Positions 622 through 8,481 of a DNA stretch of 64,000 bases are shown here, one piece after another. The DNA comes from Betaproteobacteria bacterium (GTDB taxonomy: Bacteria; Pseudomonadota; Gammaproteobacteria; Burkholderiales; CAIKXV01). Position numbers and translations under genes: made by a program. The number at the start of each line of letters is the position of its first letter. The stretch's first letter is position 1. The notes below the pieces were generated by a model. It saw only the letters and a list, made by a program, of their open reading frames with translations, was not told the DNA's origin and made no database searches. Location: positions 124,001-188,000 of the forward strand of contig JAJTHE010000037.1 of NCBI GenBank assembly GCA_021298815.1. The letters are read 5' to 3'.

Positions 622-936
622 GTGCTCGCTCCAACTGCCGCCCGCATGGACCTGCCCCTGATCCTCGAGACACTGGTGAAACACAAGCCCGACCTGAAGC
701 GCCGCTTCGGCGTGACGCGGCTCGCCGTGTTCGGATCGACCGCGCGCGGCACCGCACGGGCTGACAGCGATATCGACATGCTCGTGGCCTTCGACGGACC
801 AGCCACGTCGGATCGTTACTTCGGGCTGCAGTTCTTCCTCGAGGATCTCCTCGGGCGCCCTGTCGACCTGGTGACGGACAAGGCGCTGCGCAGCGAACTG
901 CGGTCCTCCGTCGAGGCCGAAGCGATCCATGTCTGA
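622..936 (+). CDS. mntA: MntA-like minimal nucleotidyltransferase antitoxin
   Basis: Minimal nucleotidyltransferase (MNT) that would act as antitoxin to the overlapping HEPN gene. In characterised MntA-HepT pairs the MNT protein transfers AMP to a tyrosine beside the HEPN active site. Numbered from the ATG at 646, the GSX10DXD catalytic motif is visible (G30, S31, D42, D44) with a third acidic residue at D74. A GTG at 622 has a GGGAG ribosome site seven bases upstream and is preferred; the ATG at 646 has none but matches the usual family start. The stop overlaps the next start by 8 bases, as expected for a coupled pair. The assignment is strong; activity is inferred. Confidence 0.85.
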   Translation: MLAPTAARMDLPLILETLVKHKPDLKRRFGVTRLAVFGSTARGTARADSDIDMLVAFDGPATSDRYFGLQFFLEDLLGRPVDLVTDKALRSELRSSVEAEAIHV

Positions 937-2107
937 GCCCGTGCCGCCGCGGGCTGACCGGCAATGGCGGTTCTACGTTGAAGACATGCTTCGCTTTTCG
1001 CGCAAGATCATGGAGTACAGCGCGCAGCTCGACTTCCAGGCGTTCGATTCCGGCGGACAGGCCTTCGATGCCATCCTTCGCAACCTGGAACTGATCGGCG
1101 AGGCCGCAACGCATGTCCCGGAAGATGCACGTGCACGGAATCCGGGGATTCCGTGGCGGCGACTGGTGGCAACGCGGAACCGACTGATCCATGGCTACCT
1201 CGGCCTCGACAACGACACCCTGTGGAGCCTCGTGCGGTCGGATGTACCGGCGCTGGCAGACGCACTTGCCGGCCTTCAGGAAGGAAAGACTGTCCCTGCA
1301 GGCGCGCCCACTGCGTTCCGACGCTATGTCGGCATCGACTACTCGGGCGCACAGACGCCAACCAGCAGCCTGAAGGGGCTTCGCGTCTACCTGGTCGATG
1401 GTGACGGGACAGCAGCGGAAGTGGCGCCGCCCCCCAGCCCCCGCAAGTACTGGACGCGGCGCGGGATCGCTGAGTGGCTGGCGGCCGTACTGAGCGAGGA
1501 CCGCTCGACGATCGTAGGCATCGATCACGGATTTTCCTTCCCGCTGCGCTATTTCGAGTCGCACCAGATACCGCCGGAGTGGCCCGCCTTCCTCGAAGAC
1601 TTCCAGCGCCACTGGCCGACCGACGAAGACCACGTGTATGTCGACTTCGTGCGCCATGGGTCTGTCGGAAACGGCGATGCGCGCGGCGGCAGCAGCCGGT
1701 GGCGTCGAATCACCGAAATGCGCGCCCGATCGGCAAAGTCGGTGTTCCATTTCGACGTCCAGGGATCGGTCGCGAAGTCGACGCATGCCGGCATTCCCTG
1801 GCTGCTGTACTTGCGCCAAAGATGCGGCGACCGCCTGCATTTCTGGCCTTTCGACGGTTGGCAGGTGCCGGATGGCCACTCTGCGGTCGCCGAAGTCTAT
1901 CCGTCCCTCTGGAAGCATCTGTACCCGGGCGGGGACCGTACGCCTGACCAGCAGGACGCCTACACGATCGCCTGCTGGCTGCGCGACGCGGACAGGTCCG
2001 GGCAACTTGCGTCCTTCATGCAGCCGCCCCTGAGCCCGCAGGAACGAACGATCGCAACCGTGGAAGGCTGGATACTGGGCGTCAAAGACCTGCCGCGCGT
2101 GAAGTGA
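929..2107 (+). CDS. HepT-like HEPN toxin fused to an RNase H-fold (DUF429-like) domain
   Basis: A 392-residue protein with two parts. Residues 1-115 are a HepT/DUF86 HEPN domain carrying the RNase motif RX4HXY (R83, H88, Y90; seen as RNRLIHGY). Residues 131-392 resemble the RNase H-like fold of DUF429-type predicted nucleases: strands YVGIDYSG (D137) and IVGIDHGFSFP (D199), then AEVYP (E322) and DQQDAY (D343), a plausible set of four metal ligands. Ordinary HepT proteins stop after about 110-145 residues, so the second half is an extra domain. The frame is continuous with no stop between them. The gene overlaps the MNT gene, whose product would modify Y90. The HEPN call is firm; the C-terminal fold is assigned from motif pattern only. 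Confidence 0.8.
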   Translation: MSEPVPPRADRQWRFYVEDMLRFSRKIMEYSAQLDFQAFDSGGQAFDAILRNLELIGEAATHVPEDARARNPGIPWRRLVATRNRLIHGYLGLDNDTLWSLVRSDVPALADALAGLQEGKTVPAGAPTAFRRYVGIDYSGAQTPTSSLKGLRVYLVDGDGTAAEVAPPPSPRKYWTRRGIAEWLAAVLSEDRSTIVGIDHGFSFPLRYFESHQIPPEWPAFLEDFQRHWPTDEDHVYVDFVRHGSVGNGDARGGSSRWRRITEMRARSAKSVFHFDVQGSVAKSTHAGIPWLLYLRQRCGDRLHFWPFDGWQVPDGHSAVAEVYPSLWKHLYPGGDRTPDQQDAYTIACWLRDADRSGQLASFMQPPLSPQERTIATVEGWILGVKDLPRVK

Positions 2108-2116
2108 CGCAACGCT

Positions 2117-3892
2117 TCAGGAACGCGGGATCACCGGCAGCAACACATACGGCGCACGCTCACGGTCGAAATGCAGCGTATTCACCCCGCCGAACACCTC
2201 GGGTGGACGGTCGACCGGATCGACGTGCAGGAACGGCCCCACACCCTTCATCGGATACGGCCCGTTCGGCGGCGAGGCATCGGTGCCGTCGTATTCATAG
2301 TCGCGCCCGAGCACGGTCACCGCGAGGCGATAGCCCACCGGTACCACGATCGATGTCGGCCAGACCTCGACGTCCAGCTCCACCGGAACGCCCGGCTGCA
2401 ACGGCCACGCCTCGTCATGGGGATGCCACGGCCGCCACGGCCGGCTCTGGCCCGGATCGAGCTTGCGCTGCGACGCGCGCAGCCAGCCGATGGCCACCGG
2501 CACGCGCGGATCGTGGGCGCCGATGAAGGTGACTTCCCGGCCCTGAGGATCGAACACGCGCACGACCAGGAACACGTCGGCATCGCGCGTGCGCGACGAC
2601 AGCCAGAGCTTCGCGCCCGCCGGCCCGGTGATCTCGAGGGGCGCGTCGAGCGGCGGCGTGGTGAAGGTCAGGCCTTCGCCCATCGCTTCGTATTCGAGGG
2701 TGGTGTGCGCATCCGGACGCGTCGTGGTGAGCGTGCGGCTCGCCGGGTCCAGGTAGAAAGGCGTGAACCGGGTGCCGGCCAGCGGCCATTCCTGCTCGGC
2801 ACGCAACTCGAAGCGCTCGCCCGGGTGGCGCACGTTGACCGACACGCGCGGCTGCCTGTCCCAGCCGGTGTCCTCCCCCTTCAGGAAGTGGCCGAAGAAG
2901 CGCTTCTGCAGGCCGATGCCGTAGTGCGTATAGAAGTGGGTGAAGTGCGTGTCGCCGTGGATCTCGAGCCACTTCTGGCGCGAGCCCGCGCGCTGGAACC
3001 CCTCGAAGTTGCCGCGCGTATGCAGGCCCATCCCGCCCCAGTTGGCGCACGAGACGAAGGGCACTTCGATGTCCTCGAGGCGCGGCATGCGCGCGCGGTA
3101 GTAATCGTCGACCATCGGCCGCGCGAGGGCCTCGCCGCCGAGGTCTGCGCGGTTGGCGGCGAGTTCGGCGTCATTCAGTTCGATCGGGCCGGCGACCGGC
3201 TCGCCGGTCACCCTGCTCTTCGGTCCGCGCATTCCGAGCCCGTGCTGCACCGACTTCACCTGCCGCCGGTACCAGTTGTCGAGGAAGCCGGACAGGATGC
3301 CGCCGTGGCGCGTGAGCTCCCGGTAGTAGTCGGACGAGCCCTCCCACAGGCACATGGCCGCGAGGTGCTTCGGCCGCAGCGCACCGACCTGCCACTGGTT
3401 CATCGAGTAGTACGAGATGCCGTTCATGCCCACCTTGCCGTTGCTCCACGGCTGCTCGCCGGCCCACTCGATGCACAGCTTCAGGTCGAGCGTCTCGCGC
3501 GGCGACCAGCAATCGATCAGGCCGGGCGAACGTCCGGCGCCGCGCGAGTCCACGCGCACGCAGGCATAACCATCGGGCACCCATTTCTCGGGGTCGATCA
3601 GTTCCCAGTTCTTGTACTTGCCGGACGTTCCTTCGAGGATCTCCGGCGCGGCCCTGACCAGCCGAGCCCAATGGCTCGGATACCCGTCCTCGAAGTCGAG
3701 ACCCTTCGCATACGGACCGCTGGAGAGGATGACCGGATGCCGGCCCCCGCCCGGTGGACGGAAGACATCGGCGCGCAGCACCACGCCATCGTCCATCGTG
3801 ATCGGCACATCCCAGTCGACCTGCATGCCGTCGCGCACCTCGCTGCGGCAGTCGTTGCACCAGGGATCCTCCGGGGGCGGGGTCGTGCTCAT
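2117..3892 (-). CDS. CocE/NonD-family alpha/beta hydrolase (X-Pro dipeptidyl-peptidase type)
   Basis: A 591-residue serine hydrolase of the CocE/NonD group, which cleaves esters or acyl-amide bonds; the substrate cannot be told from sequence. After PITMDDGVVLRADVFRP, typical of the family start, comes the nucleophile motif GISYYS (S160), then a region ending IHGDTHFTHFYTHYG that probably supplies the histidine. The last 200 residues form the jelly-roll domain of the family, with GAKLWLSSRTRDADVFLVV and a late GYRLAVTVLG. No signal peptide is present, so it is probably cytoplasmic. The ATG at 3892 starts 16 bases after the stop of the upstream Bug receptor gene, so the two are probably cotranscribed: receptor first, hydrolase second. 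Confidence 0.88.
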   Translation of the reverse strand: MSTTPPPEDPWCNDCRSEVRDGMQVDWDVPITMDDGVVLRADVFRPPGGGRHPVILSSGPYAKGLDFEDGYPSHWARLVRAAPEILEGTSGKYKNWELIDPEKWVPDGYACVRVDSRGAGRSPGLIDCWSPRETLDLKLCIEWAGEQPWSNGKVGMNGISYYSMNQWQVGALRPKHLAAMCLWEGSSDYYRELTRHGGILSGFLDNWYRRQVKSVQHGLGMRGPKSRVTGEPVAGPIELNDAELAANRADLGGEALARPMVDDYYRARMPRLEDIEVPFVSCANWGGMGLHTRGNFEGFQRAGSRQKWLEIHGDTHFTHFYTHYGIGLQKRFFGHFLKGEDTGWDRQPRVSVNVRHPGERFELRAEQEWPLAGTRFTPFYLDPASRTLTTTRPDAHTTLEYEAMGEGLTFTTPPLDAPLEITGPAGAKLWLSSRTRDADVFLVVRVFDPQGREVTFIGAHDPRVPVAIGWLRASQRKLDPGQSRPWRPWHPHDEAWPLQPGVPVELDVEVWPTSIVVPVGYRLAVTVLGRDYEYDGTDASPPNGPYPMKGVGPFLHVDPVDRPPEVFGGVNTLHFDRERAPYVLLPVIPRS

Positions 3893-3908
3893 GCGCGGGC
3901 CTGCCAGC

Positions 3909-4946
3909 TCATTCCTGCTTGTTGCCGCCGGCCTTCGCGATGCGCGCCGCCAGCGCGCGCATCTGCGCCAGGTCCTGCGCGACATAGCGCGCGAACGCAT
4001 CGGTGCTCATGCCGCCGGGCAGCAGGCCGAGCTCGTCGAACCGCGCACGGATGTCGGGCTCGGCCACCGCGCGCTCCACCTCGGCATGCAGGCGGGCGAC
4101 GATCTCGGGACGCGTGCCGGGCGGCAGCCACAGGCCGAACCAGCCGATCAGGTCGAAGTCGGGATAGCCGACCTCGCGCATCGTCGGCACGTCGGGCAGT
4201 CCCTTCCAGCGCACCGGGCCGGTGATCGCCAGCGGGCGCGCCTTGCCGCCCTTGATCAGCGGCAGCGCCACCGGCGTGGTCATGAACAGCATGTCAATAT
4301 GGCCGCCCATCAGGTCGTTGGTCGCCTGTGCACCACCCTTGTACTGCACGTAGCGGATGTCGGTACCGGACAGCGCCTTGAGCATCTCGGCGCCGATGTA
4401 GAAGATATTGCCCACGCCTGCGGAGCCATAAGTGAGCTTGCCCGGATACTTCTTCGCCAGCGCGACGAACTCCTTCACGCTGCGCGCCGGGATCGACGGA
4501 TGGATCATGTGCACCATGCCGTAGGTGCGCGCGATCTGCGTGACCGGCGTGAAGTCCTTGATCGGGTCGTAGGGCACGTTTGCCGCATTGAACGCCGTGT
4601 TCGACGTATGCGAGCCGGTGGTGATCAGCCAGGTGTGGCCGTCGGGGGCCGCCTTCGAGACCAGGCTGCTGGCGACGACGCCTGCCGCACCGACACGGTT
4701 CTCGAGGATGATCGGCTGGCCGAGCGCCGCCGACATCTTCGGCATCACCAGCCGCGCCACCAGGTCGACGACGCCGCCTGCGCCGAAGCCTTCGATCAGG
4801 CGGATCGGCTTGGCGGGGAAGTCCTGGGCCTGCGCTGCGGCGGGCAGCGCGGCCGCGAGCGCGGCGGACAGCACGAAGGAAGCGGCAAGGGCGGACGGCA
4901 GGCGCGAAAGGCGCTGGCGTCCGCGGCGCGGACTGTTCTGGGACAT
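3909..4946 (-). CDS. Bug/TctC-family solute receptor
   Basis: A 345-residue periplasmic solute receptor. It has a long basic N-terminus (RRGRQRLSR) and a hydrophobic export signal ending in AAAQA, then AKPIRLIEGFGAGG and ENRVGAAGVVA. The usual VENRPGAGG is thus altered to ENRVGAAG, and the first loop reads EGFGAGG rather than VPFAAGG, a divergence in the carboxylate-binding loops that may mean a different ligand. The ATG at 4946 follows a GGAGGAGAAC ribosome site. It is the first gene of a pair with the CocE-type hydrolase, whose substrate or product it may bind. Confidence 0.93.
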   Translation of the reverse strand: MSQNSPRRGRQRLSRLPSALAASFVLSAALAAALPAAAQAQDFPAKPIRLIEGFGAGGVVDLVARLVMPKMSAALGQPIILENRVGAAGVVASSLVSKAAPDGHTWLITTGSHTSNTAFNAANVPYDPIKDFTPVTQIARTYGMVHMIHPSIPARSVKEFVALAKKYPGKLTYGSAGVGNIFYIGAEMLKALSGTDIRYVQYKGGAQATNDLMGGHIDMLFMTTPVALPLIKGGKARPLAITGPVRWKGLPDVPTMREVGYPDFDLIGWFGLWLPPGTRPEIVARLHAEVERAVAEPDIRARFDELGLLPGGMSTDAFARYVAQDLAQMRALAARIAKAGGNKQE

Positions 4947-6129: not shown

Positions 6130-7164
6130 TCAGCCCGGTTTCAGTCCGATCGACCGGATCACTGGCGACCAGCGGCCGATCTCGGATTCGATGAAGCGCT
6201 GGGCGCGCTCCGGCGTATCGTCCGCGGACATCTCCAGGCCCGCGTTCACCAATAGCTTCACCAGCGCCTTGTCGGCGACGGCGACCCGCAGCGCATTCGA
6301 GATGCGCTCGGCCGCGGCGGCCGGTGTCGCAGCTGGCGCGAACAGCCCGGCGAAATTGAGGGCGACCATGTCCGGCAGCCCGGACTCGATCGCAGTCGGG
6401 ATCTCGGAGGCGCTGCCGGCACGCTTCGCCGTCGTCACCGCGAGGATGCGCAGCCGTCCAGAGCGGTGGTATTCGATCATCTGGCTGCTGATGTTCAGCA
6501 CGCCGACGGGTACATGCCCGCCCAGCAGGTCGGTGGCGGCCGGACCGCCGCCGCGATAGGGCACATGGGACAGGGACGGCAGCCTGGCGAGCGACTTGAA
6601 CAGCTCGGCCCCCAGGTGCGTCGCCGACCCGGCGCCGGCCGACGCATAGGAAAGCTGGCTCGGCCGGTCACGGGCGAACGCGATGAACGCCTGCAGGTTC
6701 TTCACCGGCAAGGAGGGATGGACGATGATCGCCAGCCCGCTGACCGCGATGATGCCGATCGGCGCGAAGTCCTTGACCGGATCGTAGCCGGGCGCGTTCG
6801 TCACCAGCGGCCCGACGATGTGGGTCGCGGCACTGCCAAGCAGCAGGGTGTTGCCGTCCGGCTCGGCGCGTGCCACGGCCGCCGCACCGATCGTGCCGCC
6901 GGCACCGGCGCGATTCTCGACCACGACATTGCCGAGCAACGACCGCATGCGTTCCGCCAGTGGCCGCGCGACGGTGTCGTTGATGCCGCCCGGTGCGAAC
7001 GGAACGACCAGCCGTACCGGACGTTCCGCAGAAGCACCCTGCGGCCAGGCGGCGCCCGCGGCCAGGAGCAGGCCGCCCCCGGCCAGGCTGGCCAGCGAGG
7101 ATGAACGGCGCGCCCACTTGCGCAGGACGCGGCTGGCATGCATGTGAACCCATCGAGCGAACAA
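6130..7164 (-). CDS. Bug/TctC-family solute receptor (TTG start)
   Basis: A 344-residue periplasmic receptor. After a basic start (RVLRKWARR) comes a hydrophobic signal ending WPQGASA, then RPVRLVVPFAPGGINDT, VENRAGAGGTIGAA and GNTLLLGSA. The start is taken as TTG (7162-7164) because an AGGAGG ribosome site lies five bases upstream; the in-frame ATG at 7143 would be too far from it. It is followed by the NMT1-like gene. Two different receptor folds side by side may serve related solutes. The ligand is unknown. Confidence 0.92.
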   Translation of the reverse strand: MFARWVHMHASRVLRKWARRSSSLASLAGGGLLLAAGAAWPQGASAERPVRLVVPFAPGGINDTVARPLAERMRSLLGNVVVENRAGAGGTIGAAAVARAEPDGNTLLLGSAATHIVGPLVTNAPGYDPVKDFAPIGIIAVSGLAIIVHPSLPVKNLQAFIAFARDRPSQLSYASAGAGSATHLGAELFKSLARLPSLSHVPYRGGGPAATDLLGGHVPVGVLNISSQMIEYHRSGRLRILAVTTAKRAGSASEIPTAIESGLPDMVALNFAGLFAPAATPAAAAERISNALRVAVADKALVKLLVNAGLEMSADDTPERAQRFIESEIGRWSPVIRSIGLKPG

Positions 7165-7333: not shown

Positions 7334-8317
7334 CTACTCGCGTGCGATGCCCGCTGCCTTCACCACCTTCGCCCACTTCACCACTTCGGAGCGGATGAGC
7401 GCTGCGAACTCATCCGGGGTATTGCCCACCGGGTCTGCGCCGCTCGATACCAGGCGCTCGCGCGTGCCCGGATCCTGCAGCGCGAACACGACGCCCTTGT
7501 GCAGTCGCGCGACGACCTCCCTCGGCGTACCCGCGGGGGCCACCATGCCGTACCACTGCACCGCCTCGTAGCCAGGCACGCCCTGCTCGGCGATGGTCGG
7601 GATCTCCGGCGCGCTCTTCGAGCGTGCGGCACTGGTCACGCCGTAGGCGTGCAGCCGCCCCGACTTCACGTACTGCGTGCCCACGATCATGTTGTTGACC
7701 ATCAGCGGCAGGTGGCCGGCCACGACGTCGCCGATGCCGATCGTCGCGCTCTTGTAGGGGACATGCACCATCTTCAGCCCGGCCATGCTCAGGAACAGCT
7801 CCATGCTCATGTGCAGGCTGGACCCGGTCCCTGCAGAGGCGAACTCGAGCTTGCCCGGCCGCGCCCTGGCGAAGGCGATCAGTTCCTTCACGTTCTTCGG
7901 CGGCAGCGACGAATGGCCGAGCAGGATATTCGGCAGGGAGACGTACTGGCTCACCGGGGCGAAGTCGCGCACCGGATCGAACGGCAGGTTCTTCGCGATC
8001 GACGGCTGGATGGTCATGCTGCTGATGGCCGTGAGCAGCGTGTAGCCGTCGGGCGCCGAACGCGCGACCACTTCGGTGCCGACGATCGAACCCGCACCCG
8101 GGCGGTTCTCGACCAGCACGCGCTGGCCGAAGAACTCGTCGAGCTTCGGCGCGACCATGCGCGTCGTGCCGTCGGTACCGCCGCCCGCGCCCGAGGGCAC
8201 GATCAGGCGGATCGGCTTCACCGGGAATTCCGGCTGAGCGGCTGCCTCGAGTGCGAGGCCGGTGAGGGCGATGCCCAGCAGTCCGGAAACGCTGCGGACA
8301 TGATGACCGAGTGCCAT
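7334..8317 (-). CDS. Bug/TctC-family solute receptor
   Basis: A 327-residue periplasmic receptor with a hydrophobic signal (VSGLLGIALTGLALEAAA), then VKPIRLIVPSGAGGGTD, VENRPGAGSIVGTE and GYTLLTAISS, with the C-terminal half reading YKSATIGIGDVVAGHLPLM and IPTIAEQGVPGYE. All family landmarks are present. The start at 8317 has GGAGGAG upstream; a longer reading frame to 8401 is not needed. It stands alone: 169 bases separate it from the next receptor gene downstream, and it diverges from the deacetylase gene at 8482. Confidence 0.93.
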   Translation of the reverse strand: MALGHHVRSVSGLLGIALTGLALEAAAQPEFPVKPIRLIVPSGAGGGTDGTTRMVAPKLDEFFGQRVLVENRPGAGSIVGTEVVARSAPDGYTLLTAISSMTIQPSIAKNLPFDPVRDFAPVSQYVSLPNILLGHSSLPPKNVKELIAFARARPGKLEFASAGTGSSLHMSMELFLSMAGLKMVHVPYKSATIGIGDVVAGHLPLMVNNMIVGTQYVKSGRLHAYGVTSAARSKSAPEIPTIAEQGVPGYEAVQWYGMVAPAGTPREVVARLHKGVVFALQDPGTRERLVSSGADPVGNTPDEFAALIRSEVVKWAKVVKAAGIARE

Positions 8318-8481
8318 GCTGTTCTCCTCCTGCCATCCGGAACGTTGCCGGAAGTCGTTCTTGCGGTGCGCCACCCGGCGCCAGACGTCAATGTACAGCA
8401 TGAACGACGTGCCGACGCCTATTGAGCGCGGACGCCACTACCGGCTACAGTGCGCCATCCTCGAAACGCCTGGAAGACGAC

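Follow-up and report, generated by a model that had tools for sequence, protein, structure and literature searches.

A HepT toxin joined in frame to a predicted RNase H-like domain from a family found in defence operons

In a betaproteobacterial genome (assembly GCA_021298815.1; the window analysed is the whole stretch of 64,000 nucleotides from contig JAJTHE010000037.1), we found a small cassette in which an mntA antitoxin gene is followed by a hepT toxin gene that continues, in frame, into an apparently complete copy of a second gene. The reading we favour, and consider probable, is that of a horizontally acquired type VII toxin-antitoxin (TA) cassette whose hepT has been fused in frame to a complete, defence-associated RNase H-like gene, the second domain being an active nuclease. 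The cassette and its toxin-antitoxin parts are as follows.

About 590-2125, no strand assigned: inserted cassette (mntA and the hepT fusion), borders good to about 20 bases, from same-genus alignments.
646-936, plus strand: mntA, MNT-family adenylyltransferase antitoxin, 96 aa (Pfam NTP_transf_2, E 2.4e-18).
733-777, plus strand: GS-X10-DXD motif of MntA, residues 30-44 (G30-S31-X10-D42-I-D44).
929-2107, plus strand: hepT fusion gene, HEPN RNase toxin with a predicted RNase H-like C-terminal domain, 392 aa, a single uninterrupted ATG ORF.
989-1267, plus strand: HEPN (HepT-like, PF01934) domain, residues 21-113 (Pfam E 7.5e-23; alignment with 13 standalone HepTs).
1175-1198, plus strand: RX4HXY motif (R83-X4-H88-G-Y90), predicted RNase site and AMP-acceptor tyrosine (from the alignment; role from PMC7641770).

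The first-pass annotation had predicted an MntA-HepT pair with its motif residues in place, and this was borne out: both ORFs are intact, and G30, S31, D42, D44, R83, H88 and Y90 are all present. The pair has the make-up of a type VII TA system, i.e., a PF01909 gene beside a PF01934 gene with the GS-X10-DXD and RX4HXY motifs as defined for MntA-HepT (PMC7641770), and the matches to NTP_transf_2 (PF01909) in MntA and to the HepT-like family (residues 21-113) both exceed the curated Pfam cut-offs. The 3' end of mntA overlaps the hepT fusion ORF by 8 nt. We preferred ATG 646 as the start of mntA because relatives start about 20 residues ahead of a common FGVTRL motif; GTG 622 is possible but less likely. 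In the nearest mntA-hepT operons, the MNT genes upstream of standalone hepT are 61-69% identical to MntA and the HepT proteins about 50-56% identical to the HEPN half, and R83, H88 and Y90 are invariant in an alignment of 14 sequences (the fusion and 13 other HepTs). Judged by sequence, residues 1 to about 120 of the fusion are an ordinary predicted HepT RNase toxin of the type VII TA kind. The NCBIfam equivalog cut-offs were missed (NF047752 and NF047751; 49.1 and 21.4 bits vs 60), and MntA matched NCBIfam MntA_antitoxin at E 4.1e-13 yet under the family cut-off. Hence, we name the pair MntA-HepT-type by Pfam families and motifs, not as an NCBIfam equivalog.

The remainder of the toxin belongs to a different gene family, which we call the partner family.

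1307-2104, plus strand: C-terminal RNase H-like domain (predicted), residues 127-392 (standalone relatives 65-76% identical; AlphaFold2 model; VIA and Foldseek rows).
1337-1339, plus strand: D137, predicted first catalytic acid, at the end of strand 1 (alignments, model).
1523-1525, plus strand: D199, predicted catalytic acid, at the end of strand 4 (alignments, model).
1892-1894, plus strand: E322, conserved acid in strand 5, in an EVYPS motif (alignment, model).
1955-1957, plus strand: D343, conserved acid in the C-terminal helix, in a DQ(H/Q)DA motif (alignment, model).

A peptide-pattern scan of about 85,000 species genomes picked out 438 stretches with similarity to the fusion protein, of which the best 80 match from residue ~128 on, at 65-76% identity and in many phyla; in every one of these 80, the partner gene stands by itself, joined to neither a HEPN nor an MNT coding sequence. 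The fusion keeps 106 of the 108 columns that are at least 95% conserved among 53 standalone relatives, which argues that the fused copy is a complete, apparently undamaged member of a standalone gene family of about 265 residues; the conservation of the fused domain and its motifs is far beyond chance. The four acidic positions to which the first-pass annotation had drawn attention proved invariant or nearly so among relatives: D137 is invariant in a 56-row family alignment, D343 is nearly invariant, and D199 and E322 are invariant even among distant relatives. These more remote family members (24-31%) were found on plasmids of Azospirillum and Sphingomonas as well as in other genomes. Motifs of the family's own include WTRRG, QGSVAKSTHAG and EGWILGV. 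We found no Pfam domain and no PADLOC model for the partner family, no Pfam domain beyond residue ~120 of the fusion, and no meaningful match when the fusion protein was searched against sequences of solved structures. An unknown domain of NCBIfam NF011066/PRK14495 weakly matches residues 259-385 (E 1.4e-4), far under the family cut-off; there it is joined to MobB, here to HepT.

Several individual family members deserve mention. A Nitrosospira copy (L025:1977-3248) extends about 150 residues past the conserved EGWILGV end, possibly a different C-terminal fusion. The Sphingomonas plasmid relative (L137) lies directly 3' of a rarA-type recombination gene and the Azospirillum plasmid relative (L138) directly 3' of dnaE, contexts hinting at a DNA-repair-related branch of the family. 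Copies in assemblies labelled Klebsiella pneumoniae (L015) and Actinomycetes (L017) are 73-75% identical to the fusion's domain, like Burkholderiales ones, and the HigBA genes of L017 are 94-96% identical to those of L013 (Burkholderiales); these assemblies are probably mislabelled or contaminated during binning.

An AlphaFold2 model of the C-terminal domain, based on 56 sequences, has a mean pLDDT of 81 and a pTM of 0.85. Its elements are ordered E-E-E-H-E-...-H-E-H, as expected for an RNase H-like fold, with D137 and D199 ending strands 1 and 4, E322 lying within strand 5 and D343 within the last helix. D137, D199 and D343 thus occupy the positions of the RNase H-like acid pattern (strands 1 and 4 and the C-terminal helix), with E322 in addition in strand 5. 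The fold search proposed in the first-pass annotation gave mostly RNase H-like top rows at middling scores. Foldseek returned nothing at E <= 0.001, its top rows including Tex, Argonaute, a chloroplast Holliday resolvase, Spt6 and RNase HI; against viral models, it gave weak RNase H-, resolvase- and terminase-type rows among others. VIA-align listed, at Z 6.4-5.0, mostly RuvC, Cas12i, IS621, TerL, Tex/Spt6, MOC1, IscB and RuvX, together with some actin-like kinases and Hsp70, which share the wider fold, and its best Z of 6.4 compares with the Z of 8 that the tool deems trustworthy. Because the matches agree and the residue positions fit, an RNase H-like nuclease is the best reading of the C-terminal domain, even though each match alone is weak.

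The domain had also been likened to DUF429 (PF04250), a family of predicted RNase H-like nucleases (PMC3985635). The RNase H-like part of that proposal is supported by the model and the conserved acids; membership in DUF429 is not. No significant match was obtained with Pfam, with Pfam on relatives, with two DUF429 alignments or with hhalign: the fusion protein has no Pfam match to DUF429 at E <= 1, a distant relative reaches just E 0.14, and hhalign gave a local probability of 7-8% and a global one of 28%, the latter with four motifs collinear. The shared, collinear motifs are a G-x-D at strand 1, (V/I)GxDxxxxxP, E(V/A)(Y/H)P and a D-x-x-DA in the C-terminal helix, whereas the motifs of the partner family listed above are its own. 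Kinship of the C-terminal domain to DUF429 is possible. The host genome also has a true DUF429 gene, on contig C166 (L149:1339-3751), directly downstream of an ATP-dependent DNA ligase-like gene, a context unlike that of the fused domain.

We then considered the genes around standalone partner copies, three of which serve as examples.

L017:738-2195: example partner locus.
L047:1052-5116: example partner locus.
L040:2880-4888: example partner locus.

Restriction or DISARM genes were present at 21 of the 80 standalone loci (the best 80 of 438), namely type I restriction HsdR (8 loci), HsdM and HsdS, DISARM DrmC (3 loci), or Mrr. These defence genes are nearly always upstream of the partner gene and on the same strand, often with a gap of less than 100 nt, and a serine recombinase lies 3' of the partner gene in 9 loci. 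From about 70 strong type I helicase-family matches in 100 phylum genomes (roughly 360 Mb), we estimate that about 0.15 of 80 partner loci would carry one by chance, vs 8 seen, the loci not being independent of one another. The partner copies most similar to the fused one (71-75% identical) share their loci with HigBA pairs or an MqsA/NadS-like HTH gene. The partner gene lies 17-20 nt behind a HigBA pair (HigB Pfam match, E 3.2e-31) in L013, L017 and L019, the contig of L019 beginning inside higA, and L164 also holds the HigBA genes; in L012, L014 and L036 it lies close behind the MqsA/NadS-like HTH gene, which is also found in L163. In L027, a DUF4145 domain, which belongs to the HEPN superfamily (PMC3710099), is encoded by the gene immediately upstream. 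This recurrence as the last gene of type I restriction-modification (R-M), DISARM, Mrr and HigBA operons suggests that the partner family encodes a defence-associated nuclease.

The join in the fusion falls where a standalone hepT would end and a standalone partner gene would begin.

1283-1315, plus strand: fusion junction, residues 119-129, where the standalone HepT end meets the standalone partner start.

Standalone HepT proteins of the nearest mntA-hepT operons end at fusion position ~120-123, and standalone partner genes begin M-(A)-(T/P)-A-F-x-R-Y, matching A127-P-T-A-F-R-R-Y of the fusion, which has a GCG codon at the site of the relatives' ATG start. No in-frame start codon occurs between the junction and the conserved core of the partner; the nearest in-frame GTG is residue 102, within HepT. 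The hepT stop and the partner start have thus both been lost, leaving a join in frame between the two domain ends. The fusion looks like the final step of the partner gene's tendency to trail defence and TA operons at their 3' end.

No second fusion was found in 398 phylum and 399 order genomes searched with the full protein, or among 150 relatives searched with the C-terminal domain (overlapping sets); both halves were found separately many times in those searches, and G098, G549 and G576 hold both on different contigs. The plasmid collection PLSDB has no record in which one place covers 80% of the fusion protein, and in IMG/VR no close relative of the C-terminal domain carries a HEPN fusion. 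The closest HepTs are all standalone, ending at fusion position ~120. A tblastn row over residues 18-385 at L047 was rejected as a second fusion: the extension is spurious, and the locus has an HsdR gene upstream and no HEPN. L029 was set aside as evidence of linkage, its mntA-hepT pair lying 3 kb upstream of the partner gene, not adjacent, and being only 33-49% identical. One IMG/VR entry (L092, IMGVR_UViG_2891415116_000001) has the same length (43923) and coordinates as a Gemmobacter aestuarii contig (NZ_SSND01000007.1, L056), and its virus label is therefore doubtful. As far as these searches reach, the fusion looks unique to one assembly. The first-pass annotation had proposed counting homologues with this two-domain layout, and had named a separate HEPN gene in most homologues, with the fusion unique to one assembly, as a result that would speak against its idea; that is the outcome here, with all of the best 80 of the 438 stretches standalone, the close HepTs standalone and no second fusion, and it limits the interest of the fusion itself.

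Occurrence in one assembly, the completeness and unaltered state of both domains, and the frequent position of the partner gene only a few bases downstream of unrelated TA or R-M genes, where a single event could join them, are also what an accidental, neutral read-through would leave, in which hepT lost its stop beside a defence gene and two domains now work independently on one chain. The loss of the partner start as well (GCG for ATG), with no in-frame start before the conserved core, counts against such an accident: the partner seems no longer able to be expressed separately, a loss that could persist only with a working fusion or with both halves dispensable. We regard a neutral accident as unlikely, though a serious contender.

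Two unrelated genes could also have been joined artificially during assembly or binning, given that the source assembly comprises 173 contigs with an estimated completeness of 88% and contamination of 4%. Yet genus-specific genes, syntenic in sister genomes, flank the cassette on both sides within a 206-kb contig, and the two coding regions meet in frame precisely where one domain stops and the other starts, an outcome that a random misjoin would rarely produce; we consider an artefact very improbable. In genome alignments, same-genus genomes match the window up to ~419-585 and resume from 2125-2129, and without the cassette their tctC and CocE-type genes are only ~200 bp apart. Since sister genomes show this empty site, the whole cassette, from roughly 590 to 2125, is an insertion of ~1.5 kb that, of the genomes searched, only the host genome has. 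Neither an integrase gene nor an att site was seen adjoining it in the stretch that was read. Nearby are TctC/Bug-type solute-binding-like genes (3-557, 3909-4946, 6130-7164 and 7334-8401, minus strand) and a CocE-type hydrolase gene (2117-4000), all named by sequence resemblance only.

How might the fusion act? Domain identity, motifs, the head-to-tail junction, the empty site and the standalone parts elsewhere were computed; the steps of the mechanism we infer. In the parent system, the HepT RNase is blocked when MntA attaches AMPs to its RX4HXY tyrosine (PMC7641770). AMPylation of Y90 is expected here because the motifs are conserved: MntA would place AMP on Tyr90 beside the HEPN RNase site, holding the toxin off. 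If MntA were lost, through phage infection or loss of the cassette, the HEPN half would cut RNA and growth would stop, and the appended domain would make a second cut, with the help of metal ions, in DNA, RNA or a hybrid of the two. We favour an active second nuclease because the domain retains its four acids as well as 106 of the 108 positions conserved in the family. The fused state is seen in one assembly only, so conservation gives joint function no support.

Alternatively, the appended domain might steer the HEPN RNase to its substrate. More generally, it could be a regulatory or targeting module that attaches to nucleic acid or to the HEPN-MntA complex and modulates the toxin, rather than a second effector. 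There is precedent in E. coli RNase HI, a binding partner of the HEPN toxin RnlA that RnlB requires in order to inhibit the toxin and the toxin requires in order to become active (PMC5308261), and in RnlA-family HEPN toxins that are joined to RNase H-fold domains (PMC3710099); the partner family also follows very different toxins and restriction genes, as an accessory would. A pure binding module would not, however, need the four putative catalytic acids, all of which are conserved, and we judge a regulatory role rather unlikely. Within the nuclease reading that we prefer, a wider proposal is that the partner is an uncharacterised RNase H-like nuclease family that joins TA, R-M and DISARM operons, usually as a trailing gene and in this cassette as a fusion, and serves them as a general accessory or as a second-line effector, with one AMPylating antitoxin here keeping two nucleases on one chain in check; we offer this tentatively, as a rather unlikely extension.

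The fusion alone is a single-assembly curiosity, and the larger interest lies in the unrecognised partner family, which is widespread and strongly conserved, occurring in hundreds of genomes with 65-76% identity across phyla. Should it be a nuclease, many defence systems would have in common a component that current defence finders overlook, and its fusion here suggests that it would act together with RNA-cutting toxins.

A two-nuclease toxin is not new as a concept, with precedents in PMC3710099; for the combination of an MNT antitoxin, HepT and the unnamed partner family, we found no description in the literature searched. The closest known system is MntA-HepT of Shewanella oneidensis (SO_3165/SO_3166), which shares the antitoxin-first, overlapping genes, the GS-X10-DXD and RX4HXY motifs and the sizes of the MNT and HEPN parts. 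The system described here differs in the extra ~265-residue domain of its toxin and in missing the NCBIfam cut-offs. The RnlA/RNase LS family also combines a HEPN RNase toxin with an RNase H-fold domain (of the caulimovirus viroplasmin type) within a TA system, giving "two-headed RNases" (PMC3710099). The fusion falls outside that family, its HEPN domain being of the PF01934 type and its partner an MNT protein: the HEPN and RNase H-like families are different ones, the RNase H domain is N-terminal there and C-terminal here, and the antitoxin is RnlB rather than MNT. Finally, PMC3710099 (Table 1) lists a fusion of DUF86 (HepT) with an archaeal Holliday-junction-resolvase-like REase, likewise a HepT-type HEPN paired with a second predicted nuclease; that nuclease has a restriction-endonuclease fold, whereas the one predicted here is RNase H-like.
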